Part shown: positions 31,423 through 48,853 of the stretch, one piece after another
Numbering within the stretch: the first letter of the stretch is position 1
Layout: every line of letters begins with the position of its first letter
Assembly: GCF_024978135.1 (NCBI RefSeq)
Contig: NZ_JANTEZ010000005.1
Span: 62,001 to 126,000, forward strand
Direction of reading: 5' to 3'
Origin: Herbiconiux gentiana
GTDB lineage: Bacteria > Actinomycetota > Actinomycetes > Actinomycetales > Microbacteriaceae
Length of the DNA stretch: 64,000 nt
Position numbers and translations under genes: made by a program
The notes under the pieces: model-generated
Database searches by the model: none
The model's input: the letters and a program-made list of their open reading frames with translations, nothing else
Told to the model about the DNA's origin: nothing

Positions 31423-32615
31423 GCGCGCCTGTCACGATCACCTCCGCGTCGGCCCTGAAGCGCTCCCTCGCCGCGCTGGCCGCCGAGTTCGCCGCCGTCG
31501 CGGTCGAGCGCGACGCCGAGGGCACCGCTCCGTTCGCCGAGGTGGCCCGGTTGCGCGCCACGGGGGCACTGCCCGCGCTCGTTCCGACCGCGCTGGGCGG
31601 CGGCGGGCTGGGCTGGCGCACCGTGTTCGAGGCGCTGCGGCCGATCATCCGCGCCGATGCCGGGCTGGGGCACGTCTTCGCGTACCACTACGTCAACTCG
31701 TGGCGGCTGCAGCTGAACGAGAACCAGCCGGCGATCGAGGAGCTGCAGCGCGGGCTCGCGACGGACCACTGGTTCTGGGGCGGTGCGGGCAACCCGCGCG
31801 ACGCGGGCCTCGAGCTCACGCCTGTCGAGGGCGGGTTCACCGTGTCGGGCCGCAAGTTCTTCGCGACCGGGGCCCAGGTGGCCGACCGGGTCACGGCCTC
31901 CGGCACCCGGGTCGACACCGGCGAGAAGCTCGCGATCATCATCGACGCCACGCAGCCCGGCGTGGTGCACCACGACGACTGGGCGAACATCGGGCAGCGG
32001 CTGTCGGCCTCGGGCTCGGTGTCGTTCGACGCGGCGTCGGTGCCCGACGCGCACGTGCTCGGGCTCGGCGAGCAGGCGGGGCCGGCCTACCGCCCCTACG
32101 CCTCACTGTCCATCCTGCTGTTCCAGCTCGCGCTCGACCACCTGCACGTGGGGCTCGCCGAGGGGGCACTCGCGGCCGCCGCCTCGTACGTCGCCACGAG
32201 CACCCGCCCCTGGTCGACCGCCACCGTCGACCGCGCGGTCGACGACCCGTACATCCGTGAGCTGATCGGCGAGCTGACCTCGGCGACGAGGGCGGCGGAT
32301 GCCCTGACCTGGCGTGCCACGGACGCCCTCGTCGAGGCGGCCGACCGCGGCTGGGACCTCACCGACGCCGAGCGCGGCGAGGTCGCGGTGGAGATCGCGG
32401 CGGCCAAGGTCGTGTCGACGACGACCGTGCTCGACGTCACCTCGCGGCTGTTCGAACTCACCGGGGCGCGGGCCACCGGGGAGTCGTACGGCTTCGACCG
32501 GTTCTGGCGGAACGCCCGCACGATCACGCTGCACGACCCCGTCGCATACAAGGCTCAGGAGGTCGGCGACCATGCGCTGCAGGGCCTGTTCCCGACGCCG
32601 TCGGGCTACAGCTAG
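31419..32615 (+). CDS. Acyl-CoA dehydrogenase family flavoprotein (SfnB/DszC-like)
   Basis: A 398-residue protein of the class that includes SfnB and DszC: N-terminal helices, VPTALGGGGLGWRTVFEALRPIIRADAGLGHVFAYH, a middle domain with VSGRKFFATGAQVADRV, and the C-terminal TGESYGFDRFWRNARTITLHDPVAYK that is typical for FMN-dependent monooxygenases acting on sulfur compounds rather than for true acyl-CoA dehydrogenases. If so, it would use reduced FMN to attack an organosulfur compound. ATGA-coupled to the phosphatase gene. The assignment is family-level only. Confidence 0.8.
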   Translation: MSAPVTITSASALKRSLAALAAEFAAVAVERDAEGTAPFAEVARLRATGALPALVPTALGGGGLGWRTVFEALRPIIRADAGLGHVFAYHYVNSWRLQLNENQPAIEELQRGLATDHWFWGGAGNPRDAGLELTPVEGGFTVSGRKFFATGAQVADRVTASGTRVDTGEKLAIIIDATQPGVVHHDDWANIGQRLSASGSVSFDAASVPDAHVLGLGEQAGPAYRPYASLSILLFQLALDHLHVGLAEGALAAAASYVATSTRPWSTATVDRAVDDPYIRELIGELTSATRAADALTWRATDALVEAADRGWDLTDAERGEVAVEIAAAKVVSTTTVLDVTSRLFELTGARATGESYGFDRFWRNARTITLHDPVAYKAQEVGDHALQGLFPTPSGYS

Positions 32616-34210: not shown

Positions 34211-34786
34211 TCAGGCGGGTACGGAGGCCAGCTCGTCGTAGGTGGCGAACTTCGTGGCCACGTCGCTGCCGGTGAAGTGGCCCACCCAGCCGTCGTCGTC
34301 GTGGAAGAAGCGCACCGAGACGTAGTCGGGGTTGGTGCCCATGTCGAACCAGTGCGTCGTGTCCTTCGGCACCGAGAGCAGGTCGCCGGCCTCGCAGAAC
34401 ACGGCGTGCACCTTGCCCTGGGCGTGCAGGTAGAACACGCCGGAGCCGCGCGCGAAGAAGCGGTCCTCGTCGTCGTCGTGCTGGTGCTCGCTGAGGAACT
34501 TCTGGCGCGCCTCGGCGGCCTGCGCCCGGTACTCGTCGGTGTCGGCGGGGGTGATCGAGACGACGTCGACGAGCGTGTAGCCGTGGTCGGTGTTCACGCC
34601 GGCGATCTCGTCGCGGTAGAGCTCGAGCACCTCTTCCTGCGTGGGCTCGGCCGAGAGCTCCTTGAGCTCCCAGCGGCTGAAGCGGGCGTTCAGGCCGGCG
34701 AGCACCTCGTGGATGGTGTCGAAGTCGCGCGTCTGCAGCGCGGGAGTGGTGGGGTCGGTGTCGTTCCACACGGTCAGCAGGGTCAT
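34211..34786 (-). CDS. mtnD: Acireductone dioxygenase
   Basis: A 191-residue ARD cupin. Metal ligands are H101, H103, E107 (HQHDDDE) and H145 (THWFDMG). It cleaves acireductone with O2 to 2-keto-4-methylthiobutyrate and formate when iron is bound, the last ring-opening step of methionine salvage. The ATG has TACGAT six bases upstream, a leaderless promoter, so the longer frame upstream is rejected. It is divergent from an RbsBAC-like importer and an mtnK gene; mtnA, mtnK, mtnC and mtnB lie 11 kb away. Confidence 0.93.
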   Translation of the reverse strand: MTLLTVWNDTDPTTPALQTRDFDTIHEVLAGLNARFSRWELKELSAEPTQEEVLELYRDEIAGVNTDHGYTLVDVVSITPADTDEYRAQAAEARQKFLSEHQHDDDEDRFFARGSGVFYLHAQGKVHAVFCEAGDLLSVPKDTTHWFDMGTNPDYVSVRFFHDDDGWVGHFTGSDVATKFATYDELASVPA

Positions 34787-34792
34787 GTGCTC

Positions 34793-34798
34793 ATCGTA
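34793..34798 (-). promoter_or_regulatory. -10 box of a leaderless promoter (TACGAT, minus strand) for mtnD
   Basis: TACGAT six bases before the mtnD ATG; it fixes the start. The other 160 bases between mtnD and the importer gene show no clear second promoter or riboswitch to my reading. Confidence 0.55.
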
Positions 34799-34965
34799 AT
34801 CCCGCGCGCTCGGCGTCTCCTCCTGCACATCCATCTCGAAGGCCCGTGAAGGTAACAGAGCGCAACACGATTCGCCGCGACACGCACGCGAGGTCTTGAA
34901 TCGAGCTGCACCCGCACCCACTGCACCCTCCTCACCCCACATTCCTCGTCCCGAAGGAGCACTCC

Positions 34966-36066
34966 ATGGCCATCCTCCGCAGAGCTGCGGCCGTCACGGC
35001 CCTCACCGCCGCCGGCCTCCTCGTCCTCTCCGGCTGCGCGCAGTCGAGCACCTCGTCCGAAGCGTCCTCGTCCGACTCGGCGGCGAAGCCCACCGCCTCG
35101 GCCGCCCTCCCCTCGCCCTTCGACGGCGACCCGGTCACCGTGGCGCTGGTGCGCCAGAGCGGCGCCGGCGACTTCTTCGAGGCCTGGGGCGCCGGCGCGG
35201 CCGCCCAGGCGGAGTTCGCCAACATCGACCTGCAGGTCACCGACGCCCGCAACGACAACGCGAAGCAGGCGAGCGACCTCGAGCAGGCCATCGCCGCCAA
35301 GCCCGACGCGATCATCGTCGACCACGGTCAGACCGACACGATCCAGCCGCTCATCACCAAGGCGGTCGACGCGGGCATCCCGGTCATCGTCTACGACCTC
35401 GCGCTCACCGACACCGACGGTGTCATCACCACCAGCCAGTCCGACGCCTCGATGGCCGAGGGCGTGCTGAAGCAGCTCGTCGCCGACGTCGGCCAGGGCG
35501 CCAAGGTCGGCTACGTCTCGGCCACCGGCTTCGCCCCGCTCGACCGTCGCGCCGAGGTGTGGAACAAGGTCGTGGCCGACAACGACCTCGACGTCGTCTT
35601 CTCCACCGGCAAGGTCTCCGAGTCGACCGCGACCGACAACATCCCGCTGGTCGACGCGGCCCTGAAGCAGAACCCCGACGTGAAGGCGATCTTCGCTCCT
35701 TACGACGAGATCACCAAGGGCGCCGTGCAGGCGGTCATCCAGAACAACCTGCAGAGCTCGGTGAAGGTCTACGGCATCGACATCTCCAACGCCGACCTCG
35801 AGGTCATCACCGCCGAGGGCAGCCCCTGGGTCGCCACCTCGGCCACCGACCCCGCGGCCGTCGGCGCCGGAGTCGTGCGCGCCCTCGCCCTCAGCCTGGC
35901 CGGTCAGCTCGACGAGACCGACGTGCAGTTCCCCGCCATCACCATCACGCAGGACTTCCTGGCCGAGAACAAGGTCACGAACGTCAAGGAGCTGCGGGCC
36001 GCTGAGCCGTCGCTGGCGCTCGACGACGTGGTCGTGGCGGATTGGCTGCCCGCGGTCTCCGAATGA
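34966..36066 (+). CDS. RbsB-type substrate-binding lipoprotein, putative methylthioribose binder
   Basis: A 366-residue periplasmic-binding-protein type I lipoprotein. The signal peptide ends in LSGC (Cys24). A Ser/Ala-rich linker is followed by the RbsB fold: VTVALVRQSGAGDFFEAW, DAIIVDHGQTDTIQPLITKAVDAGIPVIVYD, and KAIFAPYDEITKGAVQAV. AAGGAG precedes the ATG. The genes behind it are an RbsA-like ATPase, an RbsC-like permease and a methylthioribose kinase, and mtnD is divergent; hence methylthioribose is the likely ligand. Another pentose is not excluded. Confidence 0.85.
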   Translation: MAILRRAAAVTALTAAGLLVLSGCAQSSTSSEASSSDSAAKPTASAALPSPFDGDPVTVALVRQSGAGDFFEAWGAGAAAQAEFANIDLQVTDARNDNAKQASDLEQAIAAKPDAIIVDHGQTDTIQPLITKAVDAGIPVIVYDLALTDTDGVITTSQSDASMAEGVLKQLVADVGQGAKVGYVSATGFAPLDRRAEVWNKVVADNDLDVVFSTGKVSESTATDNIPLVDAALKQNPDVKAIFAPYDEITKGAVQAVIQNNLQSSVKVYGIDISNADLEVITAEGSPWVATSATDPAAVGAGVVRALALSLAGQLDETDVQFPAITITQDFLAENKVTNVKELRAAEPSLALDDVVVADWLPAVSE

Positions 36067-37745
36067 CCGACCCGCTCGCCGATCGCCCCGGGGGGCACGA
36101 CACCGTCGTGTCCCCCGTCGGGGTTCCCGCGGGTGGCGTCGTGTCCCTCGCGGGCGTCTCGGTCGCCTACGGGTCGAACGTCGTGCTGCAGGGTGTCGAC
36201 CTCGCCTTCGGCGCGGGGGAGATCACGGCGCTGCTCGGCGCGAACGGGGCCGGCAAGTCCACGCTGATCAAGGCGCTGTCGGGGGCGAACGCCCGCTACG
36301 GCGGCGAGATCCGCATCGGCGGCGATCTCGTGCACCTGTCCTCCCCGGTGCAGGCGCGGCAGCTCGGCATCTCCACCGTGCACCAGAAGGTGGCCGACGG
36401 CATCGTGCCCGGCCTGTCGGTGGCCGAGAACCTCACGCTCGACGACCTCGCGCAGGCGTCGAGGCATCCGCTGCGCCGCCGCCGGCAGGCCCTCGCCGAT
36501 GCCCGGGCCGCCCTCGCCACGCTCGGTCTCGACTGGAACGACGCCGTGCTCGAGCGCGACGCCGCGACGCTGCCCATCTCCGACGCGCAGCTGCTCGTGC
36601 TGGCGCGGGCGCTGCGCAGCACCCCGCGCCTGCTCATCCTCGACGAACCCACCTCGGCGCTCACCGCCGCCGAGGCCGAGCGGCTGTTCGACGTGCTTCG
36701 GGCGCTGCGCGCGAACGGCCTGTCGATCGTCTACGTCTCCCACCGCTTCGGCGAGATCGAGGCGCTGGCCGACCGCGTCGTCGTGCTGCGCGACGGCCTC
36801 GTGCAGTCGGTCTCCTCCCGCCCGTTCGCCTGGCACGAGCTGCTGCACGACATGCTCGGCCGGCAGACCGCGCTCGAGAACGAGCGGGGCACGGCCGCAC
36901 GGGGAACGGATGCGGTGGCCCGCCTCGAGGGTGTCGTCGCCCTGCCCGACAGCCCGCCGATCGACCTCGAGATCCGCCGGGGCGAGGTGCTCGGGGTGCT
37001 CGGTCTTATCGGCGCCGGCAAGACCGAGCTGGCCGAGCTGCTCGGCGGTCTCGCGCAGCCGCTGGCCGGACGCCTCACGCTCGAGGGCGCGGCGTACGCG
37101 CCGAAGCGGCCGTCCGACGCCATCCGCGCCGGGGTCGTGCTGGTGCCCGAAGACCGTCAGAAGCAGGGCATCCTGCCGGGCTGGTCGGTGCTGCGCAACA
37201 TCACGCTGCCGTTCCTCGCCGAGTCGAGCGCGCTCGGGCTGCTGCGCCGGCGGTCGGAGCGCTCGCGCGCCGACACGGTCATCGACACGCTCTCGGTGGT
37301 CACGGCCGGGCCCGACGCCCTGATCGACGACCTCTCGGGCGGCAACCAGCAGAAGGTCGTCGTGGGCCGCTGGCTGTCGGCGAAGCCGCGCCTGGCCCTG
37401 CTCGACGAGCCCTTCCGCGGGGTCGACATCGCGGCCCGCCGCGAGATCGGCGCCCGCCTCGCCGCGATCGCCGCCGACGGCGCCGCCGCGGTCGTCTTCT
37501 CCAGCGACGTCGACGAGATCCTCGAGGTGGCCGACCGCATCGTCGTGCTCGTGGCGGGCCGCATCGAGCTCGACCGCTACGCCGACGACGTCGACCGCCC
37601 CACGATCATCCACGCCTTCCTCGGCGAGACCGCCGCCTCGTCCCCCGCTGCCGGCACCGCCCCGTCCCCCGCCGCCACCACCGGCGAGAGCGCCCCCGCC
37701 GGTTCGACCACCACCGAGTCCGACCCCGAAAGGACTTCCCCATGA
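36063..37745 (+). CDS. RbsA-type sugar ABC importer ATPase (two nucleotide-binding domains)
   Basis: A 560-residue tandem ABC ATPase. Domain 1: Walker A GANGAGKST (59-67) with a degenerate signature (LPISDAQLLVLARAL). Domain 2: altered Walker A LIGAGKTE (about 315) and signature LSGGNQQKVVVGRWL (about 425). This asymmetry is typical of ribose-type importers. A Ser/Thr/Pro/Ala-rich tail follows. The ATG overlaps the upstream stop, and its own stop overlaps the permease start (ATGA twice). It energises uptake of the ligand bound by the preceding lipoprotein. Confidence 0.9.
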   Translation: MTDPLADRPGGHDTVVSPVGVPAGGVVSLAGVSVAYGSNVVLQGVDLAFGAGEITALLGANGAGKSTLIKALSGANARYGGEIRIGGDLVHLSSPVQARQLGISTVHQKVADGIVPGLSVAENLTLDDLAQASRHPLRRRRQALADARAALATLGLDWNDAVLERDAATLPISDAQLLVLARALRSTPRLLILDEPTSALTAAEAERLFDVLRALRANGLSIVYVSHRFGEIEALADRVVVLRDGLVQSVSSRPFAWHELLHDMLGRQTALENERGTAARGTDAVARLEGVVALPDSPPIDLEIRRGEVLGVLGLIGAGKTELAELLGGLAQPLAGRLTLEGAAYAPKRPSDAIRAGVVLVPEDRQKQGILPGWSVLRNITLPFLAESSALGLLRRRSERSRADTVIDTLSVVTAGPDALIDDLSGGNQQKVVVGRWLSAKPRLALLDEPFRGVDIAARREIGARLAAIAADGAAAVVFSSDVDEILEVADRIVVLVAGRIELDRYADDVDRPTIIHAFLGETAASSPAAGTAPSPAATTGESAPAGSTTTESDPERTSP

Positions 37746-38812
37746 CCAGCACCACCACGGCCCCGCCCGCCCGGCCGGCCGCTCCCACGAAGTCGGCGGG
37801 CGAGCGGGTCTCGGGCACCGTCGTGAAGTGGGGCTTCGTCGCCGTGACGGCGCTGCTGATCCTGTTCTTCGTGGTGTCCGAGCCCAACTTCCGCACCGTC
37901 GACAACGTCTTCGGCATGCTCAAGTTCATCGCGCCCACCGCGATCGCGGGCCTCGGCGTGATGCTCGCGATGACCGTCGGCGGCATCGACCTCTCCGTGG
38001 GCGCCTCGGCCGGCTTCGCGGTCTCGATCGCCGCGTGGACCATGGTCATCGCCAACCAGGTCGGCGGCGTCGCCGTCTCGGTGGTGCTGGTGTGCGGGCT
38101 GCTGATCGGGGCGCTGAACGCGTTCCTGATCGTCGTGGCGCGCATCCCCGACCTGCTCGCGACACTCACCACGATGTTCGTCATCGTCGGCCTCAAGCTG
38201 ATCATCGTCGACGGCAAGTCGATCTCGTCGCAGATGACCCTGTCGAACGGCACGACGGCGCCCGGCAAGTTCACCGCCGACTTCCTCTGGCTCGACCGCG
38301 GCTCGATCGGCCCCGTGCCGATCCCCGTGATCCTGTTCCTGCTCATCACCGTGCTGCTCTGGTTCCTGCTCGAGCGCACCCGCTGGGGCCGGGCGCTCTT
38401 CGCCGTCGGCACCAACGCCGAGGCTGCGCGGCTCTCGGGCATCCGGGTGCAGTGGTACCGCACGGCTGCCTACATGGGCTGCGGCCTGCTCGCCTCGGTC
38501 GCCGGCCTGCTGCTCGCCGCCCGCATCGGGCAGGGCGACGTCACCGCCGGCAACTCCCTGCTGCTCGACGCGGTCGCGGTCGCGCTGGTGGGAGTGAGCG
38601 TGCTCGGCATCGGCCGGCCGAACGCCTGGGGCACCGCCCTCGGGGCCGTGCTGATCGCGGTGATGGTCACGGGCTTCACCATGGCGGGCCTGCCCTACTA
38701 CGCTCAGGACTTCGGCAAGGGCATCGTGCTGCTCGTCGCCCTGCTGTTCAGCTTCACCTTCTCCCGCCGCCGCACGGTCGTCACCGCGGGCTCAACGACC
38801 AGCGCCTCCTGA
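37742..38812 (+). CDS. RbsC-type sugar ABC importer permease
   Basis: A 356-residue permease with about ten hydrophobic segments and the BPD-transp-2 signature region AARLSGIRVQWYRTAAYMGCGLLASVAGLLLAARIGQG; GGIDLSVGASAG near residue 80 is characteristic of ribose-type permeases. ATGA overlap with the ATPase gene. 88 bases of mostly tandem repeat separate it from a methylthioribose kinase gene. Confidence 0.9.
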   Translation: MTSTTTAPPARPAAPTKSAGERVSGTVVKWGFVAVTALLILFFVVSEPNFRTVDNVFGMLKFIAPTAIAGLGVMLAMTVGGIDLSVGASAGFAVSIAAWTMVIANQVGGVAVSVVLVCGLLIGALNAFLIVVARIPDLLATLTTMFVIVGLKLIIVDGKSISSQMTLSNGTTAPGKFTADFLWLDRGSIGPVPIPVILFLLITVLLWFLLERTRWGRALFAVGTNAEAARLSGIRVQWYRTAAYMGCGLLASVAGLLLAARIGQGDVTAGNSLLLDAVAVALVGVSVLGIGRPNAWGTALGAVLIAVMVTGFTMAGLPYYAQDFGKGIVLLVALLFSFTFSRRRTVVTAGSTTSAS

Positions 38813-38821
38813 CCCCCGCCC

Positions 38822-38896
38822 CACCCAGCCCGACCAGGACCACCCAGCCCGACCAGAACCACCCGGCCCGACCAGCCCACCCAGCCCGACCAGGAT
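38822..38896 (+). repeat. Four tandem 18-19-bp repeats in front of mtnK
   Basis: Units start at 38822, 38841, 38860 and 38878, with the form CACCCAGCCCGACCAGGAC; the last ends four bases before the ATG of the kinase gene. Each unit carries a GACCAGGA-like segment, and only the last can act as ribosome binding site. Copy number changes here would alter the leader between the permease and kinase genes. Confidence 0.85.
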
Positions 38897-38900
38897 CACC

Positions 38901-40142
38901 ATGCCCGACTTCTCCCAGCTCACCGCCGACACCGTCGCCGCCTACCTCGCGAGCCGCCGCGCTCTCGCCGGGGTCGTCGACGCCGCCCGCATCGCGTCGG
39001 TGCGCGAGGTCGGCGACGGCAACCTCAACCTCGTCTTCATCGTCGAGGACGCCGGCGGAGCATCCGTCGTTCTGAAGCAGTCGCTGCCCCACGTGCGCAC
39101 CGACCCGTCGTGGCCGATGACCCGTGAGCGCTCGGCCCGCGAGGCGACCGTGCTCGAGGCGCACCAGCGCGCCGACGCCGAGCACGTGCCCGCGCTCTAC
39201 GACTTCGACCACGAGCACTTCGTGCTGGCGATCGAGAACCTGTCCGACCACCGCGTCTGGCGCAACGAGCTGAACGCCGGGCGGGTGCACGAGTACGCGG
39301 CCGACGCCATCGGGCGCTACGTCGCCCGCACCGCCTTCGCCACCTCGCCGCTCGGTCTCGACCCGCTCGAGCACAAGGCCCTGGTGACGCGCGCCGTGAA
39401 CCCCGAGCTCGCGCAGATCACCGAGGACCTCGTCTTCACCGAGCCGTACATCGAGCACCCGCACAACGCGGTGCTGCCGGCGAACGATCCCGACGTGGCG
39501 GCCCTCCGCGCCGACCGGGCGCTGCGGCGCGAGATGGGGCTCGCGAAGTTCCGCTTCATGACCACCGCGCAGTCGCTCATCCACGGCGACCTGCACACGG
39601 GGTCGGTGTTCGTACGGCCGGCGGGCGGCTTCGAGGGCGGGGTTCCGGATGCCCGGGCCTCCGTGCGCGCGTTCGACAGCGAGTTCGGCTTCGTGGGCCC
39701 GACGGGCTTCGACCTCGGCGCCCTCTGGGCGAACCTGATCCTCGCGGCGGCCCGCGCCGAGGCCCTCGGCGAACCGGATCGCGCCGAGCTCGTGCTCACC
39801 TTGCCCGGCCGCCTGTGGGCCGCCTTCGAGCACGAGTACCGGGCGCTCTGGCCCGAGCGGCTCGACCCGCGCGTGTGGGGCGACGAGGTGCTCGAGCAGC
39901 TGCTGGCGGGCATCCGCGACGATGCGGCCGTGTTCGCGGCGGCCAAGGCGATCCGCCGGATCGTGGGCTTCGCGAAGGCGAGCGACATCGAGACCCTGCC
40001 GGCCGCCGAGCGCGAGGGCGCGGCCCGCGGCGTGCTGCGCGCCGGCCGCTCGCTCGCCCTCACCCGCCACGGCATCGCCGACGTCGAGGCCCTCGCGGCG
40101 GAGACCCTCGCGACCCTCCGCGCCTCCCGCACCCCGCGCTGA
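38901..40142 (+). CDS. mtnK: Methylthioribose kinase (importer-linked copy)
   Basis: A 413-residue aminoglycoside-phosphotransferase-fold kinase. MtnK marks are VREVGDGNLNLVFIV, VVLKQSLPHVR, the catalytic loop LIHGDLHTGSVFV and the metal motif DSEFGFVGPTGFDLGALWANL. It phosphorylates methylthioribose at O1 using ATP. The metal motif reads DSE where the second copy in this window (46514-47680) has DPE. It lies behind the putative importer and is probably co-expressed, trapping the imported sugar as its phosphate. Confidence 0.88.
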   Translation: MPDFSQLTADTVAAYLASRRALAGVVDAARIASVREVGDGNLNLVFIVEDAGGASVVLKQSLPHVRTDPSWPMTRERSAREATVLEAHQRADAEHVPALYDFDHEHFVLAIENLSDHRVWRNELNAGRVHEYAADAIGRYVARTAFATSPLGLDPLEHKALVTRAVNPELAQITEDLVFTEPYIEHPHNAVLPANDPDVAALRADRALRREMGLAKFRFMTTAQSLIHGDLHTGSVFVRPAGGFEGGVPDARASVRAFDSEFGFVGPTGFDLGALWANLILAAARAEALGEPDRAELVLTLPGRLWAAFEHEYRALWPERLDPRVWGDEVLEQLLAGIRDDAAVFAAAKAIRRIVGFAKASDIETLPAAEREGAARGVLRAGRSLALTRHGIADVEALAAETLATLRASRTPR

Positions 40143-40272
40143 CCCGCAGCAACGGGACCACAGCGCATCGGAAGCGTCGACAAGATGACGCATCCGATCT
40201 GGACACTGGCTGACATAGGTGACAAAACTTCATCTCCGTGGAATGATTGTCCTTTCGGACGACGCGAGACTG

Positions 40273-42588
40273 ATGAATCGAGAACTTATGCCCAGCAGCC
40301 GTTCACAGCTTCTGACACTGCGGTCAAGACGATCGCGCCTTGGACGGCTGGCAATGATCACCGCGAGTGTTTCGATCGTTGTGACGGGATGGTCCGGAGC
40401 GGCAGCTGGCTCGGCAACCGCCGGCACAGCACCACTAGCGCGGGTGGAACTAGTCAGCAGGGCGGCGGACAACTCGTCCCCGGCGGACAGCCCGGCGTTT
40501 TCCGCTGCGACATCTCCTGACGGGCGCTTCGTCGTCTTCGTCAGCGCCGCGTCGAATATCGCGTCAGTCACGTCGCCTTATTCCCAGGTCTACCTGAAAG
40601 ACCGAGCGAATGGCACGACTCGAGTGGTCAGCAGCGTCGGGGGGAATTCAGGAAACGGACATTCCAGCGCCCCTGATGTCTCTGACGACGGCTCTATCGT
40701 TTCGTTCAGGTCCTTCGCAACCAACCTGACGCCGACGCCGACTGGGACCACGGCGGCGCAGCTGTTGATTTGGTCCCGGTCGAGTGGGGATATCTCTCTG
40801 GCGAGCACGGCCGACGGCCGAACCCCGACCGCTGCCAACTACGACGTCGGTCAGGCCGAACTTGCGGGAGACGGTCGCACGGTAGCCTTCGTGACCTCAG
40901 CCACGAACCTCGTCAGCACTCCGACAAACGGAAATGCCCAGATCTACAAACGTGACCTTATTTCCGCAACGACGCAGATGGTCAGCATAACTGAGAGTCC
41001 ATCACCACAGGGCTCGCCGAGCAACTCATTCAGTCCATCCATCAGCTTCGACGGTCGATTCATCGCTTTCGAAACCGCCGGAGAGTTAACAGCGGCACCG
41101 ACCGCTGGATTGCCGCAAATCTATCGACGCGACACAATGGTCGGCGACACCGACCTAGTGAGCGTCAGCCGCAGCGGCTCGAGCGCCAGCAATTCAATAT
41201 CGCGCAGTCCGTCGATCTCAGCCGACGGTCGATTCGTCGCGTTCGAGAGCGCGGCGACGGACCTCACTGATCTCGCACGACCTGGAAGCTTCCAAATCTA
41301 TCTTCGCGATCTGCAAGCGAATCTCAACCGCCTTGTTTCAAAAGACAATTCCGGCACCACCGCAGCGACCGGCACCAGTAGCAAGGCATCCATTTCTCCA
41401 GATGGGCGCCAAGTGTCTTACATTTCGGACGCGAGGGATCTTGTGCCACAGGGTTCCGATTTGGCCTTCAACCGATCCCAGGTGTACCTCTTCGATAGGG
41501 GACGAGGTACGACCATCGTTGTCAGTTCACCCCGCGAGCAGGCGATCGGCGATGACAACTCATATGAGACATCGACGGCGAACGGAGGTGTCGTCGTCTT
41601 CAGCTCCCAGTCGACCAATCTGCTGCCCGAGGCGACAATGCCGAAGGGACAGGTCTACGTCGCGAGTACGAATTTCGCCACCCTGACGCGGATGGACGGC
41701 GCAGATCGCTTTGGCACCTCGGCCACGATTTCCAAGCTCACCTTCGCTAGTGGGGTCCCCGTCGCTTATGTCGTATCCGGTGTCACCTTCCCGGATGCGC
41801 TCTCGGGTGCTGCGGCAGCAGGCAGAGAACACGGGCCGGTCCTTCTGGTCACTCCCGACTCCATTCCGACCGCCACCGCGATCGAGCTACAGCGCCTAAA
41901 ACCGCAGCGGATTGTCGTAGCCGGCGGAACCAGCGCTATCCACTCAGACGTGGAGAAGGCGCTTGGGGCATACTCGCCGCTGGTTAGTAGAATTTCGGGC
42001 GCCGACCGTTTCGAGGTGTCGGCGAAGGTTTCGGAGACCGTTTTCGATGTCGTTGCGTCGGATGGGCCGACCACAGCGTTCGTCGCGTCAGGAGAGGTTT
42101 TTCCGGACGCACTCTCGGCCGGTGCGATTGCCGCTGGTCAGTCTCCCGTCCTTCTCGTCGGAAAAGATCGTCTCCCGACACTGGTCGCGGCCGAGTTGCG
42201 GCGCTTGGCACCAGACACGATCACCGTTCTCGGAGGCCCCAACGCCGTATCCGATGGAGTTGTCGCGGCGCTCCAAGCAATCGCTCCGGTGAACAGGATC
42301 GGTGGCCAGGATCGATTCGATGTGTCCGCGGGTGCGTCGGCCGCGTTCCCTGTCGGCACCCGCACGGTCTTCATCGCCTCGGGCGTCACTTTCCCCGATG
42401 CGCTATCGGGATCGGCTGCAGCGATCCAGCGACGCGCGCCAGTTCTGCTTGTCACACCCACGGCGATTCCGGATTCGATCAGGAGCGAGCTGCGGCGTCT
42501 TCAGCCGACACACATTGTCGTGCTCGGCGGGACATCAGCAATCTCCGCGGGTGTCTTCGACCAGCTCACTGGCTTTCTCGCCCGTTGA
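40273..42588 (+). CDS. Secreted seven-bladed propeller protein with three cell-wall-binding type 2 repeats
   Basis: About 771 residues, exported (signal sequence ends near GSATAGTA). Residues 60-460 hold seven repeats of the form S-x-DGR-x-V-x-F-x-S-x-A-x-N-L, as in TolB/PD40 propellers. From about residue 473 follow three CWB2 units, each opening with DRF (GADRFGTSA, GADRFEVSA, GQDRFDVSA) and containing TFPDALSG or VFPDALSA, which in the family bind wall polymers. Starts at 40219 (GTG), 40243, 40273 and 40288 are all open, and none has a strong ribosome site. GC is clearly lower than in all neighbours, which suggests recent acquisition. Confidence 0.85.
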   Translation: MNRELMPSSRSQLLTLRSRRSRLGRLAMITASVSIVVTGWSGAAAGSATAGTAPLARVELVSRAADNSSPADSPAFSAATSPDGRFVVFVSAASNIASVTSPYSQVYLKDRANGTTRVVSSVGGNSGNGHSSAPDVSDDGSIVSFRSFATNLTPTPTGTTAAQLLIWSRSSGDISLASTADGRTPTAANYDVGQAELAGDGRTVAFVTSATNLVSTPTNGNAQIYKRDLISATTQMVSITESPSPQGSPSNSFSPSISFDGRFIAFETAGELTAAPTAGLPQIYRRDTMVGDTDLVSVSRSGSSASNSISRSPSISADGRFVAFESAATDLTDLARPGSFQIYLRDLQANLNRLVSKDNSGTTAATGTSSKASISPDGRQVSYISDARDLVPQGSDLAFNRSQVYLFDRGRGTTIVVSSPREQAIGDDNSYETSTANGGVVVFSSQSTNLLPEATMPKGQVYVASTNFATLTRMDGADRFGTSATISKLTFASGVPVAYVVSGVTFPDALSGAAAAGREHGPVLLVTPDSIPTATAIELQRLKPQRIVVAGGTSAIHSDVEKALGAYSPLVSRISGADRFEVSAKVSETVFDVVASDGPTTAFVASGEVFPDALSAGAIAAGQSPVLLVGKDRLPTLVAAELRRLAPDTITVLGGPNAVSDGVVAALQAIAPVNRIGGQDRFDVSAGASAAFPVGTRTVFIASGVTFPDALSGSAAAIQRRAPVLLVTPTAIPDSIRSELRRLQPTHIVVLGGTSAISAGVFDQLTGFLAR

Positions 42589-42782
42589 CGCGGGCAGATC
42601 ATAACTGGTGGTCGCTCGCGTACCGAATGCGAGAGCAGGCAGGGTCTTTCGCCAGTTCGGTGCACGTCAGTGTGACGGGCCAGCCCATGCCGGATCGTCT
42701 GCCACCGCAGGGGGCACACTAAGCGAGACTGGGAGGGGCCCGCGAACGGATGCGCGGCCCCCACGACCCGAGGAGCCCCACC

Positions 42783-43757
42783 ATGACCGACGCGACGACC
42801 GTGACGAACGACGACGTGGTGGTGTTCCTGCCGAGAGGGGGTGGGCGGGCATCCGCTGATCGCGAAGCGACGCCGGAGCCGGGATCCACTACGCCGACGG
42901 CGACGCCGGAACCGACCCCCACCCCTGCCCTCGAGCCCGTGCCGCAGGCGGAGGCCGTGGTGAACGTCGCCGACCTCGCCGTGACGCGCGGCGACGGGGT
43001 GTTCGAGTCGATCGGCGTCGTGGGCGGGCGGCTGCTCGAGCTGCCCCGCCACCTCGCCCGCCTAGCGCACTCGGCCGAGCTGCTCGAGCTTCCGGCGCCC
43101 GATCTCGACGCCTTCGAGCAGGCGGTCCACGCGGCCCTCGCCGCGCACGAGGCGGCGCCCGAGCTGCTCGTGAAGCTGTTCCACAGCCGCGGAGTCGAGA
43201 CACCGGCCCACACCATCGACGGGCCGACCGGGTGGGTGCAGGTGCTCTCGGGCGCCGACCACTCGGCCGCCCGGCGTGAGGGCGTGCGCGTCGTGCTGCT
43301 GGATCGCGGCTACCGCAGCGACATCGCGCAGACCGCGCCGTGGCTGCTGCAGGGCGCCAAGACCCTGTCGTACGCGCTGAACAAGGCGGCCCTCCGTGAG
43401 GCGGCCCGGCGCGACGCCGACGACGTGGTGTTCGTCTCGACCGACGGCGTGCTGCTGGAGGGCCCGACGGCGAACGTGGTGGTGCGCCACGGGGACGTGT
43501 TCCGCACGCCGCGCACCGACCTGGGCATCCTCGCCGGAACCACGCAGGCCGCCTTCTTCGACACCGTGCGCGCCCGCGGGCTCACGGCCGAGGAGGCCGT
43601 GCTGACGCCCGACGACCTGACGACCGCGGACGCGGCCTGGCTCTGCTCGAGCGGACGCCTGCTCGCGCCCATCCGCTCGGTCGACGGCGCGCCGCTGCCG
43701 GTCGACGCCCCCTTCACCGCGGGCGTGCTCGCGGAGGCCTTCGGCCTCCCCGCCTGA
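42783..43757 (+). CDS. Class IV PLP enzyme (aminodeoxychorismate lyase / branched-chain aminotransferase family)
   Basis: A 324-residue fold-type IV PLP protein. The PLP lysine lies in GAKTLSYALNKAALREA, and EGPTANVVVRHGDVFRTPRTDLGILAGTTQ is the phosphate-binding region. An N-terminal Pro/Thr repeat insert (TPEPGSTTPTATPEPTPTP) is unusual. Its close relatives are called 4-amino-4-deoxychorismate lyases (folate route), but transaminase activity is common in this family. GAGGAG precedes the ATG. Because no methionine-salvage aminotransferase is present otherwise, it is one candidate for that step, speculatively. Confidence 0.8.
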   Translation: MTDATTVTNDDVVVFLPRGGGRASADREATPEPGSTTPTATPEPTPTPALEPVPQAEAVVNVADLAVTRGDGVFESIGVVGGRLLELPRHLARLAHSAELLELPAPDLDAFEQAVHAALAAHEAAPELLVKLFHSRGVETPAHTIDGPTGWVQVLSGADHSAARREGVRVVLLDRGYRSDIAQTAPWLLQGAKTLSYALNKAALREAARRDADDVVFVSTDGVLLEGPTANVVVRHGDVFRTPRTDLGILAGTTQAAFFDTVRARGLTAEEAVLTPDDLTTADAAWLCSSGRLLAPIRSVDGAPLPVDAPFTAGVLAEAFGLPA

Positions 43758-43810
43758 CGGCCGGCGCGGCAGTGGGGCTGACGCGGCCCGCAAAAAACGA
43801 ACGACGAACG

Positions 43811-43848
43811 CCGACACGGCCCTCCCCCGGAGGGAAGGGCCGTGTCGG
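43811..43848. terminator. 13-bp perfect inverted repeat between convergent genes
   Basis: CCGACACGGCCCT (43811-43823) and its inverse (43836-43848) with a 12-base loop, between the class IV PLP gene and the YeaQ-type gene. A typical strong GC hairpin terminator, usable from both sides. Confidence 0.7.
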
Positions 43849-43863
43849 TGGTGCGATGCGCGA

Positions 43864-44142
43864 CTAGCGGCGCGCGGTGCTGCGGCCGGCGAAGCGGGTC
43901 CAGATCAGCAGCACGATGATGGCGCCGATGATCGAGCCGATGATGCCGGCGGGCTGGAAGAAGCCGTCCATCGGGTCGTGCTGGAAGATCAGGAAGCCGA
44001 GGAAGCCACCGACGAACGAGCCGATGACACCCAGCAGGATGGTCATGGGGATAGAGATGTTCTGCCGACCGGGAACGATCAGGCGGGCCAGGGCACCGGC
44101 GATGAGGCCGATGACGAGAAGGCTGATGATGAGTCCGAGCAT
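43864..44142 (-). CDS. GlsB/YeaQ/YmgE-type stress membrane protein
   Basis: A 92-residue protein with three hydrophobic segments: LGLIISLLVIGLIAGALARLIVPG, then ILLGVIGSFVGGFLG and GIIGSIIGAIIVLLIW. This is the transglycosylase-associated GlsB/YeaQ family, small membrane proteins linked with general stress. AAGGAAG stands seven bases before the ATG; the longer open frame upstream overlaps the response regulator. Divergent from a LuxR response regulator, which may control it. Confidence 0.88.
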   Translation of the reverse strand: MLGLIISLLVIGLIAGALARLIVPGRQNISIPMTILLGVIGSFVGGFLGFLIFQHDPMDGFFQPAGIIGSIIGAIIVLLIWTRFAGRSTARR

Positions 44143-44216
44143 GATGTCTTCCTTCGTTCGTGCGCCCGGTTCTGAGCGGCTCCGTTCAGCGAACCACCCG
44201 GCGAGGTGGTCCGGGA

Positions 44217-44230
44217 CACCCCTAGGGGTG
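44217..44230. promoter_or_regulatory. Perfect 14-bp palindrome CACCCCTAGGGGTG
   Basis: A perfect dyad between the divergent YeaQ and response regulator genes, 24 bases before the TAGGTT box of the regulator. Its position just upstream of the promoter suggests a binding site for the LuxR-type regulator itself. Confidence 0.5.
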
Positions 44231-44253
44231 GTCTTCCGACGGCGAGGCGGGAG

Positions 44254-44259
44254 TAGGTT
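44254..44259 (+). promoter_or_regulatory. -10 box of a leaderless promoter (TAGGTT)
   Basis: TAGGTT lies seven bases before the GTG at 44267 and decides this start for the response regulator. AGGAAG between them would be part of a very short leader at most. Confidence 0.55.
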
Positions 44260-44266
44260 CAGGAAG

Positions 44267-44938
44267 GTGACCGAGACGCCGAAGCAGCCCATCCGTGTGG
44301 CCCTCGTCGACGACTACGACGTGGTGCTCACGGGCCTCGCCCACATGTTCGACCGGTACCGCGACCGCATCGTCATCTGCGAGATCGACGCGAACGCCGA
44401 GCTCAGCGACGAGGTCGACATCGTGCTCTACGACTCCTTCGCCCAGCCCGAGTCCGACCGGCAGGAGCTGGCCGGGCTGGTGAAGAACCCGCGGGCCCGG
44501 CGCGTGGTCGTCTACACCTGGAACTTCCAGCCCGAGCTCGTCGAGAGCGCCCGCGCGCAGGGCACTCACGGGTACCTGTCGAAGACGCTGCCGGCGCGGG
44601 AGCTCGTAGCCGCGCTCGAGGCGGTGCACGCGGGCGAGAGCGTGGTCAGCGAGCCGCCGAGCAAGCGGGTCGGCAGCGCCCCCGGCCTCGACTGGCCCGG
44701 CCGGCACGAGGGGTTCACTGAGCGGGAGTCCGAGATCCTCGCCCTGATCACCCAGGGCAAGAGCAACGCCGAGGTCGCCGCGCTCACCTACCTCAGCGTG
44801 AACACGATCAAGTCGTACATCCGCGAGATCTACCGCCGCATCGGGGTCTCGAGCCGCACCCAGGCCGTGCTCTGGGGTGTCGCCCACGGCTTCTCCCCCG
44901 ACCACCACCGCATCGACCACTGGCTCGGCGGCCCCTGA
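44267..44938 (+). CDS. Orphan LuxR-type response regulator with atypical receiver
   Basis: A 223-residue regulator. The receiver has the acidic pair D15-D16 and Asp56 (IVLYDSFAQ), but the usual MP after the phosphorylated Asp is replaced by SFAQ, and the end of the receiver is SKTLPARELVAAL. The C-terminal HTH, residues about 150-205, is a clear LuxR domain (FTERESEILALITQGKSNAEVAALTYLSVNTIKSYI). No sensor kinase is near. Starts at a GTG. Such atypical receivers may work without phosphorylation. Candidate target sites: the palindrome upstream. Confidence 0.88.
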   Translation: MTETPKQPIRVALVDDYDVVLTGLAHMFDRYRDRIVICEIDANAELSDEVDIVLYDSFAQPESDRQELAGLVKNPRARRVVVYTWNFQPELVESARAQGTHGYLSKTLPARELVAALEAVHAGESVVSEPPSKRVGSAPGLDWPGRHEGFTERESEILALITQGKSNAEVAALTYLSVNTIKSYIREIYRRIGVSSRTQAVLWGVAHGFSPDHHRIDHWLGGP

Positions 44939-44963
44939 CTCGCGCCCTCGTCTGAGGGCTCTC

Positions 44964-45015
44964 GGGTCGCGCAAAAGCCGCTCTGGGAGCCCGCGAAGGT
45001 GACTTTGCGCGACCC
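44964..45015. terminator. 12-bp perfect inverted repeat between convergent genes
   Basis: GGGTCGCGCAAA (44964-44975) and its inverse (45004-45015) enclose 28 bases with an inner GCTC/GAGC stem. It stands between the response regulator and mtnB. It probably terminates both the regulator and the mtn operon. Confidence 0.65.
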
Positions 45016-45027
45016 CGGGCGCGCGGG

Positions 45028-45705
45028 TCAGCGGGTCGCGAGCGCGATCTGCAGCAGCGCCTCGGTGAGCTCGAGGTGCCAGCGCGCCTGGCGCAGGTCG
45101 GCGCCCCAGGCGTAGATGCCGTGCGAGGCGACGATCAGCGCCGGCACCTCCGCGACACCGTCGGCGGCCGGGCGGTAGACGCGCTCGAAGTCGTCACCGA
45201 GCACCCGCATGTCCTGGTGGTTCTGCACGACGGGGATGACCACCCGCTCCCCGTGCGCGGAGTGACCGATGCCCTTCAGCATCTCGAGGTCCTCGAGCTC
45301 GACACCCTCGGGCCAGCGGTGGCCGGCCCGCACCGCCGCGAGCGCGTGCACGTGGATGCCGGCCCCCGCCCCGGTCACCGCCGCAATCCGGGCGTGCAGC
45401 CCCGCCTCGGCGGAGGGCTTCCGCGCGAGGCCGAGCGACGTGGTCAAAGAAGCCGAGACCGGGTCCGCGGCCCACTCCCCGAGCTCGTCCACGACCACGA
45501 TGTCCGAGGCGCCGAGCTCCCCCTTGTCGAGCCCCGAGGCCGTCACGGCGAGCCTCAGCGGAGAACGATCGAGCGTCACCGACAGATTGCCGGCGGTCCC
45601 GGGCATCCACCCGCGGGCCGCGAACCGGGCCGACTCGGCAGCGAGCGCACCGCCGGCGGTCCGCAGGGATTCAGCGTTCAGGCCAGGCAGCGAGACCCCA
45701 CTCAC
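45028..45705 (-). CDS. mtnB: Methylthioribulose-1-phosphate dehydratase
   Basis: A 225-residue class II aldolase-fold enzyme. TAGNLSV and LAVTASGLDKGEL occur near the start, zinc ligands are in GIHVHALAAV and SHGIYAWG, and the motif EDLEMLKGIGHSAHG is typical of MtnB. It removes water from methylthioribulose-1-phosphate to give the diketo compound used by MtnC. The GTG start overlaps the mtnC stop by four bases. Last gene of mtnA-mtnK-mtnC-mtnB; a hairpin follows. Confidence 0.9.
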   Translation of the reverse strand: MSGVSLPGLNAESLRTAGGALAAESARFAARGWMPGTAGNLSVTLDRSPLRLAVTASGLDKGELGASDIVVVDELGEWAADPVSASLTTSLGLARKPSAEAGLHARIAAVTGAGAGIHVHALAAVRAGHRWPEGVELEDLEMLKGIGHSAHGERVVIPVVQNHQDMRVLGDDFERVYRPAADGVAEVPALIVASHGIYAWGADLRQARWHLELTEALLQIALATR

Positions 45706-46451
45706 GGCGCCACGACCTCCACCTCGTCGAACGACCCTACGACGGCCGCCGCGCCGAAGTCCGCCTCGAAGAACGGCTCCCCCTCGCGCGAGAAGGCGAC
45801 GACCTGCCAGCCGGCCTCGAGCGCCGCCGCGACCTCGCCGGGGTTGTCGGTGAAGAACACCAGCTCCTCGGCCGGGATGCCGAGGGAGGACGCGATCGCG
45901 TCGTACGACGCGGACTCCTTCTTCGGCCCGGCCTTGATCGTGTCGAAGTAGTCGGTGATCAGCGACGTCAGGTCGCCCGAGGGCGAGTGCCGGAACCACG
46001 GCACCTGCGAGGCCACCGATCCCGACGAGAACACGGCGAGCGCGACACCGTGCTCGTGCCAGTCCCGCAGCTTCGGGATGACGTCGTCGAAGAAGTGCGA
46101 CGAGATCTCGTCGCGTGCGAAGCCCTCGGCCCAGATCTGGCCCTGGATGGTCTTGAGCGGCGTCGCCTTGACGTCCTGCTCCATCCACTCGTGCAGCACG
46201 GCGACCACGGCGTCGGTCGTGGCGTCGGCGGGCAGCGAGGCGTCGCGGATGACCTGCGAGCGCGCCTCGGCGATGGCCGCGTCGTCGGCGTGCTCGTCGA
46301 TCCAGGCGGCGAGCCGGGGCCGGGCGTAGTCGTAGAGGTCGCCGAGGATGAACCCGGCCGCACTCGTGGTGCCCTCCAGGTCGACGACGAGGCAGCGTGC
46401 CGTCACCATCAGCGGGTCGGGGGTGGGGGCCGGCGGGTTCTCGATCGTCAC
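45702..46451 (-). CDS. mtnC: Acireductone synthase (enolase-phosphatase E1)
   Basis: A 249-residue HAD-fold enzyme with the family start CLVVDLEGTTS (Asp24, Glu26), VFSSGSVASQVPWF in the middle and VFFTDNPGEVAAALEAGW near the end. It enolises and dephosphorylates 2,3-diketo-5-methylthiopentyl-1-phosphate to acireductone, the substrate of MtnD. The start is a GTG behind AAGGA; an in-frame ATG at residue 15 would also give a full domain. 62 bases after mtnK and overlapping mtnB. Confidence 0.92.
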   Translation of the reverse strand: MTIENPPAPTPDPLMVTARCLVVDLEGTTSAAGFILGDLYDYARPRLAAWIDEHADDAAIAEARSQVIRDASLPADATTDAVVAVLHEWMEQDVKATPLKTIQGQIWAEGFARDEISSHFFDDVIPKLRDWHEHGVALAVFSSGSVASQVPWFRHSPSGDLTSLITDYFDTIKAGPKKESASYDAIASSLGIPAEELVFFTDNPGEVAAALEAGWQVVAFSREGEPFFEADFGAAAVVGSFDEVEVVAP

Positions 46452-46513
46452 GGTCGTTCCTTCGCGTCAGGGTTCAGGGGGTGGGTGGGCGCCGCAGGCG
46501 CGACGGCGGGGGT

Positions 46514-47680
46514 TCAGGATGCGGGCAGCGCCTCGCCGGTGAGCACGTGATGCCGGGCCGCGTCGAACAGACGGATCGACGCCTCGCCCAGCACGTCCCC
46601 GGGCAGCGACTCGATGTCGGCGGCGTGCGAGAAGCCGACCGCCCGGCGCATCCCCTCGACCCCGGCGAAGCGCCAGGCGTCGCGCGAGATGGCGGCCAGC
46701 GACGGCGAGGGAGCGGAGGCGCCGGCCGCGTCCCAGACCTCGGCGAACGCGTCCCAGCTGGTGTCGATCGCCGAGCGGCGCGCCGCGGCGAGCGCCGGCT
46801 GCCCCACGGCGTCGGCGGCGATCGCGGCGAGCTCGAGGTTCGCCCAGAACAACCCGAGGTCCATGCCGATCGGGCCGACGAAGCTGAACTCGGGGTCGAA
46901 CACGACCACGCGCTGCGCTCCGGCGGGGCGCCCGATCATCACCGATCCGCTGTGCAGATCGCCGTGGATCAGCGCCTCGTGCCGCGTCTCGAAGTCGTGC
47001 CGGATCGAGGCGACGGCCCCGCGCATCCGCTCGTCGACGTAGAGCGCGGCGACGCGCTCGTCGAGCGCCGGGTGCCAGTGGTTGTGCTCGTGCTGTCGGT
47101 AGGGCTCGTCGAGCACGACGTCGAGCGTCATGCGGCAGAGCTCGGGGTTGGCGGCCAGCTCGACGAGCTCGGCGTGGGCGGCCGGGCCGAGTGCCGAGAC
47201 GGAGGTCGAGGCGGCCAGTTCGCCGACGAAGCGGCCGACCACCTCGCCCAGCTGCGCGTAGTCGATCCCGACGGCGTCGGCGCCCGAGACGACCTGGCGC
47301 ACGAGGGCGTCGCGCAGCACGTCGAGGGCGCTGAGGTCCTCCATCACCAGCACGTAGCGCTCGGGGTCGAACGCCACGATCACAGGGATCGACTCGGGCA
47401 CCCGCTCGGCGAGCAGCCCGTAGGTGCGGGCTTCCGAGGCGATGCGCCCCGGGTCGACCGGCCACTCGGGCCCGACGACCTGCACCCACGGCGGGGCCTG
47501 CTTCACGGCCAGGCTGCCGAGCGGGCCGCGGGCGATGAAGACGCGGTTCATGTTGCCGGCGGTCACCTCGTCGACGCGCACCTCGGCCGGTGAGGCGGCG
47601 ACCCGCCCGAGCAGCCCGGCGCCCGCGAGGTAGGCCACCACGTCGTCGCGCCCGACGAGCAGCTCGTAGGGCGCGTTCAT
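46514..47680 (-). CDS. mtnK: Methylthioribose kinase (operon copy)
   Basis: A 388-residue kinase paralogous to the one at 38901-40142: VDEVTAGNMNRVFIA, SLAVKQAPPWVQ, the catalytic LIHGDLHSGSVMIG and the metal motif FDPEFSFVGPIGMDLGLFWANL. It makes methylthioribose-1-phosphate for MtnA, whose gene overlaps its start by four bases. The DPE motif is canonical here. The two copies differ along their whole length, so they are not a recent duplication. Confidence 0.92.
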   Translation of the reverse strand: MNAPYELLVGRDDVVAYLAGAGLLGRVAASPAEVRVDEVTAGNMNRVFIARGPLGSLAVKQAPPWVQVVGPEWPVDPGRIASEARTYGLLAERVPESIPVIVAFDPERYVLVMEDLSALDVLRDALVRQVVSGADAVGIDYAQLGEVVGRFVGELAASTSVSALGPAAHAELVELAANPELCRMTLDVVLDEPYRQHEHNHWHPALDERVAALYVDERMRGAVASIRHDFETRHEALIHGDLHSGSVMIGRPAGAQRVVVFDPEFSFVGPIGMDLGLFWANLELAAIAADAVGQPALAAARRSAIDTSWDAFAEVWDAAGASAPSPSLAAISRDAWRFAGVEGMRRAVGFSHAADIESLPGDVLGEASIRLFDAARHHVLTGEALPAS

Positions 47681-48816
47681 CGCGCACCGCCGGCGATCGA
47701 GCCCGACCCGGCCGCAGCCGACGACGCGCCTGCGTCAGCAGCGCCCGTCGCGTAGTACTCCCCCACCCGCGACGGCTCGAACGCCCCCCGGTCGGTGACG
47801 ATCCGGCTGACGAACCGCGCCGGCGTCACGTCGAACGCCGGGTACCAGGCGTCGGTCACGAGAGCGGATGCCGTGCGGCGCCCGAGCGTGTACAGCACCT
47901 CCGCGGGGTCGCGCTCCTCCACCACGATGTCGGCGGCCGTGGGCGCCTGGGCATCCGGAGCCTGCACCAGCGCGTAGAACGGCACCCCGAACGCCGAGGC
48001 GGCGACCGCGAGGCCGAGCGTGCCCACCTTGTTCACGACGCTGCCGTCGAGCGACACCCGGTCGGCCGCCGTGACGAGCGCGTCGATCGGCCCGAGCGTC
48101 GAGCCGGGCGCCAGCGCGGCGGCGCCCATGCCATCGGTGATCAGCGTGACGTGCTCGCCGAACTCGGCGAGGGTGTGCGAGGTCAGTCTGGCGCCCTGCA
48201 GGTACGGGCGCGTCTCGGTGGCGACCCAGTCGAAGCGCTTGCCGGCCTGGCGGGCGGCGCGCACGAATTCGATCAGGTAGGTGTCCATCCAGCAGTGGGT
48301 CAGGATGCGCGCGCCGTCGGGCAGCAGCTCCGCCGTCGCGACTCCGAGCCGTCGGCTGCGGTCGCGGTAGCTCTGCGCGCCGCTCCGGGCGCTCTCGACG
48401 GCGGCCTCGACGAGCGCGGCGGTGGCGCGGGCGTCGTCGGCTCCGGATGCGCGAGCCGCCGCCAGCGCCACGTCGACGTCGCCCAGCACCCGGTGCACGG
48501 CCTCGCGGGGGTGACCGTTGGTGGGGCGGGCGGTCTCGAGCGCGAGCCCCGCCACGCGCATCCGCTCGCGCGCCGCCTCGGGCCGGAGACCGGCCACCTG
48601 CAGCGCGGTCAGCTCGAGCCCGGCGTAGGCCGCGAACAGCGGGCCCGAGCTCTGCGTGACCATCGCGCGGATGGCCTCGGCCACCTGCTCGGCGTCTCCG
48701 GCCTCGACCCAGCTCACGGTCTCCGGGAACACCCGCCGGTCGAGGATCTGCGCGACCCCGCCGTCGACCCGCACGGAGTCGTCGAGCACGGGGGTGATCT
48801 CGGTGCTGCTCGTCAT
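47677..48816 (-). CDS. mtnA: Methylthioribose-1-phosphate isomerase (eIF2B-like, divergent)
   Basis: A 379-residue eIF2B/MtnA-fold protein. The catalytic cysteine is in ILTHCWMDTYLIE, where classical MtnA has THCNTG, and the catalytic aspartate is in AADRVSLDGSVVNKVGT. ETRPYLQGARLTSHTLAE is the sugar-phosphate-binding helix. With mtnK, mtnC and mtnB behind it, the isomerase role is secure by context despite the changed motif. ATG at 48816 chosen; a GTG 12 bases upstream is also possible. -10: TATTCT at 48854-48859 on the minus strand. The Ala/Ser/Gly-rich tail is disordered. Confidence 0.88.
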   Translation of the reverse strand: MTSSTEITPVLDDSVRVDGGVAQILDRRVFPETVSWVEAGDAEQVAEAIRAMVTQSSGPLFAAYAGLELTALQVAGLRPEAARERMRVAGLALETARPTNGHPREAVHRVLGDVDVALAAARASGADDARATAALVEAAVESARSGAQSYRDRSRRLGVATAELLPDGARILTHCWMDTYLIEFVRAARQAGKRFDWVATETRPYLQGARLTSHTLAEFGEHVTLITDGMGAAALAPGSTLGPIDALVTAADRVSLDGSVVNKVGTLGLAVAASAFGVPFYALVQAPDAQAPTAADIVVEERDPAEVLYTLGRRTASALVTDAWYPAFDVTPARFVSRIVTDRGAFEPSRVGEYYATGAADAGASSAAAGSGSIAGGAR

Positions 48817-48853
48817 GCTGCTGCCCACTGCCCGTCTCGTCGCCTGCCCCTCG

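Follow-up and report, generated by a model that had tools for sequence, protein, structure and literature searches.

A putative 5-methylthioribose ABC importer set among methionine-salvage genes in Herbiconiux gentiana

What does an ATP-binding cassette (ABC) importer of the sugar type carry when the genes around it belong to methionine salvage, the pathway that leads from 5-methylthioribose (MTR) back to methionine? The question arises in a 64,000-nucleotide stretch of Herbiconiux gentiana DNA (the window; G000:C13:62001-126000 of a 3.85 Mb genome, GC content 66-76%), where mtnD, mtnA, mtnC, mtnB and genes for two MtnK-like kinases, here K1 and K2, surround such an importer at 34211-48828. 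We consider it very probable that 34966-38812 encodes an ABC importer for MTR, which the adjoining kinase K1 would trap and feed to MtnA, MtnB, MtnC and MtnD. The importer role is read from gene content, from the kinship of its binding protein to 4RY8, a solved protein titled as the solute-binding protein of an MTR transporter, and from a conserved linkage to the kinase; because of the latter two, MTR import with trapping by K1 is the best-supported reading, with the substrate, its transport and its trapping presumed from them. The features are as follows.

34211..34786, minus strand: mtnD, acireductone dioxygenase (ARD family PF03079, 92.4 bits for the long open reading frame)
34787..34965, no strand: divergent intergenic region, with the tandem element GTAACAGAGCGCAACACGATTCG at 34852-34874
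34966..36066, plus strand: putative MTR-type solute-binding lipoprotein, a CUT2-type sugar-binding protein (PF13407, 120.8 bits)
36063..37745, plus strand: double-domain ABC ATPase of the sugar importer class (AraG, YtfR, XylG, LsrA and RbsA models 379-313 bits, all below cut-off)
37742..38812, plus strand: importer permease (PF02653, 123.8 bits; ribose permease model 153.5 bits, below its cut-off of 398)
38901..40142, plus strand: K1, the importer-linked MtnK, methylthioribose kinase (TIGR01767, 349.7 bits, above the cut-off of 275)
45028..45705 (start inferred), minus strand: mtnB, methylthioribulose-1-phosphate dehydratase (TIGR03328, 151.6 bits, above 137.05)
45702..46451, minus strand: mtnC, acireductone synthase (enolase-phosphatase; TIGR01691, 189.4 bits, above 128.1)
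46514..47680, minus strand: K2, second MtnK-like kinase (TIGR01767, 264.2 bits, just under 275)
47677..48828, minus strand: mtnA, methylthioribose-1-phosphate isomerase, divergent in sequence (PF01008, 155.7 bits, above 22.4)

Profile matches bear out the layout that an earlier note on this DNA had described (mtnD divergent from the importer, an MtnK gene next, and mtnA-mtnK-mtnC-mtnB 5 kb further on); the second group, mtnA-K2-mtnC-mtnB, runs on the minus strand from 48828 down to 45028 and lies 4.9 kb beyond K1. The probable ATG of the ATPase gene, at 36063, overlaps the stop of the binding-protein gene and the stop of the ATPase gene is in turn overlapped by the ATG of the permease gene, so that all three are probably carried on one transcript. 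The gap from permease to K1 is 88 bases; K1 matches Bacillus subtilis MtnK (2olc) at 4.3e-50. A 19-base tandem repeat (4.7 copies, 38821-38909) fills this gap and runs beyond the K1 start codon. The mtnD reading frame is open to 34942, with ATG 34786 as its probable start; mtnD has no NCBIfam match, and relatives of its short form turn up in 43 of the 45 named importer loci surveyed below. The binding protein and the permease fall short of every NCBIfam cut-off, as does the ATPase for its 25 best models. The class II aldolase-fold gene passes the mtnB cut-off and falls far below the cut-offs of the aldolase models. The mtnA product scores below the NCBIfam cut-offs (PRK05720, 227.3 against 271; TIGR00512, 179.1 against 279), yet despite the missed TIGR00512 cut-off its context supports the assignment.

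The rest of the genome suggests why an MTR kinase would be kept. Methylthioadenosine (MTA) nucleosidase, mtnN, is encoded elsewhere (C10; 111.2 bits, cut-off 73.8), and no MTA phosphorylase scores over its cut-off in the genome (best 80.8 against 274.85 bits); free MTR is therefore an expected intermediate, for which a kinase would be needed. The genome holds two methylthioribose kinase (MTRK) matches, both at this locus.

The binding protein, which carries a lipobox-like LVLSGC, bears on the substrate. Its top sequence match among PDB chains is 4RY8 (3.3e-59), titled 'Crystal structure of 5-methylthioribose transporter solute binding protein TLET_1677 from Thermotoga lettingae TMO'; the next is 5ULB, a sugar-transporter protein of Yersinia enterocolitica (3.1e-32), and the rest stand at 4e-18 or weaker. 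An AlphaFold2 model (predicted local distance difference test, pLDDT, 86) again places 4RY8 first by fold (2.1e-26, 38% identity). As a control within the genome, eight related loci were compared with 4RY8: the binding protein reaches 186 bits and the runner-up 60. With the RbsB model it ranks only seventh of 38 matches in its own genome (60.3 vs 124.8 bits), and it misses the RbsB equivalog cut-off of 337 (60.1 bits). The 4RY8 crystal presumably contains its ligand. At 12 positions that we take to contact ribose in RbsB, the binding protein equals 4RY8 at 10, RbsB at five and 5ULB at four, with overall identities of 37% to 4RY8 and 25% to RbsB. RbsB residues N13, R90, N190 and Q235 are replaced by G, L, Y and T in the binding protein and by G, L, W and T in 4RY8; these substitutions would fit a less polar group at C5, and are suggestive only, since the RbsB alignment is about 25% identical. 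The nearest named relative of the binding protein, at 97%, is in Herbiconiux sp. VKM Ac-1786.

Is the pairing of importer and kinase kept in other genomes? A collection scan with the binding protein yielded 45 named loci, all close relatives (at least 69% identity) because the search patterns came from the window protein; one is a Jiangella, and the others belong to genera that we take, partly from labels, to be Microbacteriaceae. K1 is present in 41 of the 45 loci, mtnD in 43, mtnB in 39, mtnC in 38, mtnA in 33 and K2 in 19, with many of the misses reflecting contig ends or ends of the stretch read. Two of the four K1 misses (L036, L041) are contigs that end too early, and the other two (L014, L052) are real absences, both with K2 instead; mtnD is absent in L050 and cut off in L053. 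The order binding protein-ATPase-permease is kept in 44 of the 45, the remaining locus, L041, ending inside the ATPase.

A second survey took 393 genomes of the class (at least 90% completeness, own genome counted); MTRK exceeds its cut-off in 16 of them, and nine have the binding protein (E <= 1e-40). Every one of these nine, our own included, has MTRK 0.4-2.9 kb away, and a tenth genome, G391, has the permease, the ATPase and a contig-truncated binding protein adjoining its kinase. If the genomes were independent, which they are not, chance would give such co-occurrence with a probability of about 2e-14, or 5e-13 without our own genome; the two surveys also overlap, the G171 kinase being identical to that of L050. 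The linkage of importer and kinase is kept far beyond chance.

Some of the loci depart from the common form. L103 (G389) and L104 (G252) have genes for the binding protein, the permease and MtnK grouped with no ATPase between them, and the sole ATPase match in the stretch (34%) is several kb off on the opposite strand; such a remote, lone ATPase suggests that the importer may borrow one. G132 (L096) and G355 (L097) give the highest MTRK scores among the 393 genomes (441.3 and 423.6 bits); in the 17 kb read there, none of the 16 window-protein queries finds any other match.

The region between mtnD and the importer carries a further conserved feature. A tandem element, GTAAYA-N4-GYHAY with period 10, is present in 38 of 44 mtnD/importer intergenic regions, the window included, and is missing in L015, L017, L019, L020, L025 and L028. 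Across 200 letter shuffles of these regions the mean was 0.005 and the largest count 1, a comparison that is no formal test, as the pattern was picked after viewing alignments of 29 regions and related species share history. The element is also specific, with only 39 matches on both strands of the 866,097 bases of the 45 loci, 37 of them in mtnD/importer intergenic regions; the 23-base copy at 34852-34874 is unique in its own genome at up to three mismatches. The element is a candidate operator, and the locus may be co-regulated. As an operator shared with mtnA it was rejected: in the window it stands only before the importer, and among relatives the 300 bases preceding mtnA contain it in one case (L030) out of 30. 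GlnR-like half-sites were also rejected, the spacing having period 10 and not the 11 that we take to be that of GlnR boxes. At gathering thresholds, no SAM (S-adenosylmethionine) riboswitch or other Rfam family was found in the window.

In the system that we propose, the lipoprotein would capture MTR outside the cell, and the permease with its double ATPase would bring it inside, where phosphorylation at C1 by K1 would deny it exit. MtnA, MtnB, MtnC and MtnD would then convert the product to 4-methylthio-2-oxobutyrate, and a transaminase would complete the path to methionine; these pathway steps accord with general background and PMC3228920. The same enzymes would also salvage MTR made inside the cell, as expected of a genome that has mtnN and lacks an MTA phosphorylase over the family cut-off.

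Several observations weigh against this reading. The pocket comparison leans on an assumed contact list and on an RbsB alignment of low identity, and 5ULB, the second-best solved relative, agrees with the binding protein at only four of the 12 positions. Both mtnA and K2 score under family cut-offs. MTR influx in B. subtilis is assigned in PMC5743806 to another transporter, YfnA (MtrA). Six of the 16 MTRK genomes (G132, G355, G231, G107, G129, G269) have no binding-protein or permease match in the stretch read, G231 and G107 showing weak ATPase matches only, which suggests that the importer is an optional addition. Finally, the same importer in G250 and G365 is accompanied by mtnK, mtnA and an aldolase of class II, RU1PAld/FucA-like in G250 and a RhaD-like aldolase/dehydrogenase in G365; neither has mtnC or mtnD matches or an mtnB over cut-off, a set that resembles the dihydroxyacetone phosphate (DHAP) shunt.

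The G250 and G365 clusters imply that 5-deoxyribose may also be carried, and invite the view that the importer is a general one for 5-deoxypentoses, with 5-deoxyribose (radical SAM waste) as its main or an equal substrate and MTR as one of several ligands. According to excerpts of PMC6079011, DrdK has similar specificity constants for 5-deoxyribose and MTR, so that an importer may likewise carry both, and some drd clusters include sugar transporters. The window cluster itself speaks differently: it has mtnB over cut-off, mtnC and an ARD-family mtnD, steps for a methylthio compound; no fuculose-type aldolase is among the cluster genes scanned; and the closest solved relative, 4RY8, is named for MTR. 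The presence of mtnBCD points to MTR as the substrate that matters here, and we judge the general 5-deoxypentose importer to be unlikely. An ordinary ribose, xylose or autoinducer 2 (AI-2) importer standing beside mtn genes by chance is extremely improbable. Membership in generic families (PF13407, PF02653) is what such an importer would have, but the cut-offs of the named sugar and AI-2 importer models scored are missed widely, the binding protein is only seventh in its own genome for the RbsB model, and linkage to the kinase is kept in all nine surveyed binding-protein genomes and widely in the named loci. The importer, moreover, is flanked by mtnD and MtnK; a search with E. coli RbsK finds no match within the 4.1 kb that surround the binding-protein gene, and no search aimed at LsrK was made.

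The two kinases raise a question of their own, since K2 might act on another sugar and leave K1 as the sole MTR kinase here. K1 and K2 are 38% identical, and in a quick kinase tree (some branches are long) they form separate branches, with one change sufficing for each label; the Jiangella-like G171 and G107 likewise hold one of each. K2 is MtnK-like by context and yet fails the strict TIGR01767 cut-off, and in 17 of 17 loci showing both kinases its relatives are less like the window copy than those of K1 are (three of the 17 K2 matches are partial). On the other side, K2 lies in the gene order mtnA-K2-mtnC-mtnB, among solved proteins it matches B. subtilis MtnK best (2olc, 6.8e-46), and it is the only MTRK match in the genomes of Cryobacterium N22 and G. 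tibetensis, whose loci keep mtnA, mtnB, mtnC, mtnD and the importer. Where mtnA is in view (33 loci), both kinases occur in 14, K1 alone in 17 and K2 alone in two, and no locus lacks both; whole-genome searches of six of these genomes, both K2-only genomes included, found exactly one MTRK match apiece, five over cut-off and one, the L014 K2 (259.9 bits), below. K1 and K2 thus appear interchangeable, which is our best evidence that both phosphorylate MTR, and we regard a different sugar for K2 as quite improbable.

Returning to MTR import with trapping by K1, we offer a wider proposal, tentatively and with more doubt than conviction: actinobacteria may retain two kinases, K1 coupled to MTR import and K2, a separate enzyme of ancient divergence, in a housekeeping role, each able to replace the other, while the import arm, governed by a conserved tandem operator of its own, would harvest as a sulfur source the MTR (and perhaps 5-deoxyribose) that neighbours excrete. 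According to PMC3228920, MTR is excreted by E. coli and perhaps by other bacteria lacking the salvage pathway. A conserved actinobacterial importer linked to an aerobic salvage set would make such microbe-to-microbe exchange of MTR testable, and it would provide a specific name for a transporter now assigned by family models to sugar importers in general.

Of the neighbouring genes, one at 31050-32615 encodes a DszC/SfnB-like flavin monooxygenase (SfnB model 244.9 bits, below 430.9; DszC 266.6, below 850); such a gene lies upstream of mtnD in 21 of the 45 importer loci and is perhaps another sulfur-acquisition gene of the neighbourhood. Genes lying between the two halves of the locus and next to mtnA were rejected as parts of the system: a cell-wall-binding protein (none of the 45 loci, 39 of which reach mtnB), a class IV aminotransferase (10 of 45, two of those far from the equivalent place), a LuxR-type regulator (two of 45, one a weak match elsewhere) and a class V aminotransferase (none of 45; 33 loci show mtnA, several ending within about 1 kb of it, so this absence is less sure). 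The cell-wall-binding repeat 2 and PD40 protein, at 40219-42588, is encoded where GC content falls (0.66 for 40001-44000) and is possibly a local insertion.

How does this locus compare with known systems? B. subtilis YfnA is presumably not a sugar-type ABC importer. Like our proposed importer, it is concerned with MTR uptake (PMC5743806, in excerpt). DHAP-shunt and drd clusters (mtnK/drdK, mtnA/drdI, ald2/drdA) likewise combine kinase and isomerase with a linked putative 5-deoxypentose transporter in excerpts of PMC6079011 and PMC12632272, but they end in an aldolase where the window cluster has mtnB, mtnC and mtnD, and no FucA/DrdA-type class II aldolase replaces mtnB in the window cluster. 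TLET_1677 (4RY8), the closest solved relative, shares 37-38% identity over about 320 residues and 10 of 12 pocket-equivalent positions; it comes from another phylum and differs at two of those positions (W there and Y here, V there and I here).

The nearest published system is MtrABC, predicted as an MTR ABC transporter by Rodionov 2004 as cited in PMC3228920, which has gammaproteobacterial cases and describes the importer MtrACB as probable; excerpts elsewhere list mtnXYZ with mtnKABCDE under methylthioribose uptake and salvage (PMC4239095) and label B. cereus genes '5-methylthioribose ABC transporter' (PMC9502454). The earlier note had taken the importer with its kinase trap for a possible new transporter role. 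The importer and trap stand, and their linkage is not confined to this strain; the novelty falls to these prior descriptions and to the solved MTR-transporter protein in PDB, although no description of an actinobacterial MTR importer was noticed in the literature searched, which was covered in part. As in MtrABC/MtrACB, a sugar-type ABC importer co-occurs with mtnK, mtnA and other salvage genes, a likeness drawn from published descriptions. Upstream elements in the published systems are an S-box (B. cereus) or MetJ metboxes, whereas here a different conserved element is found; the SAM riboswitch of B. cereus is not essential to the type, since gammaproteobacteria use metboxes. The window locus further differs in being actinobacterial, in having the importer divergent from mtnD and in having two kinases. 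Given a binding protein closest to an MTR protein, a double ATPase, a permease and linked mtnK and salvage genes, we conclude that the window importer is a well-supported new example of an already predicted kind of importer rather than a new system.

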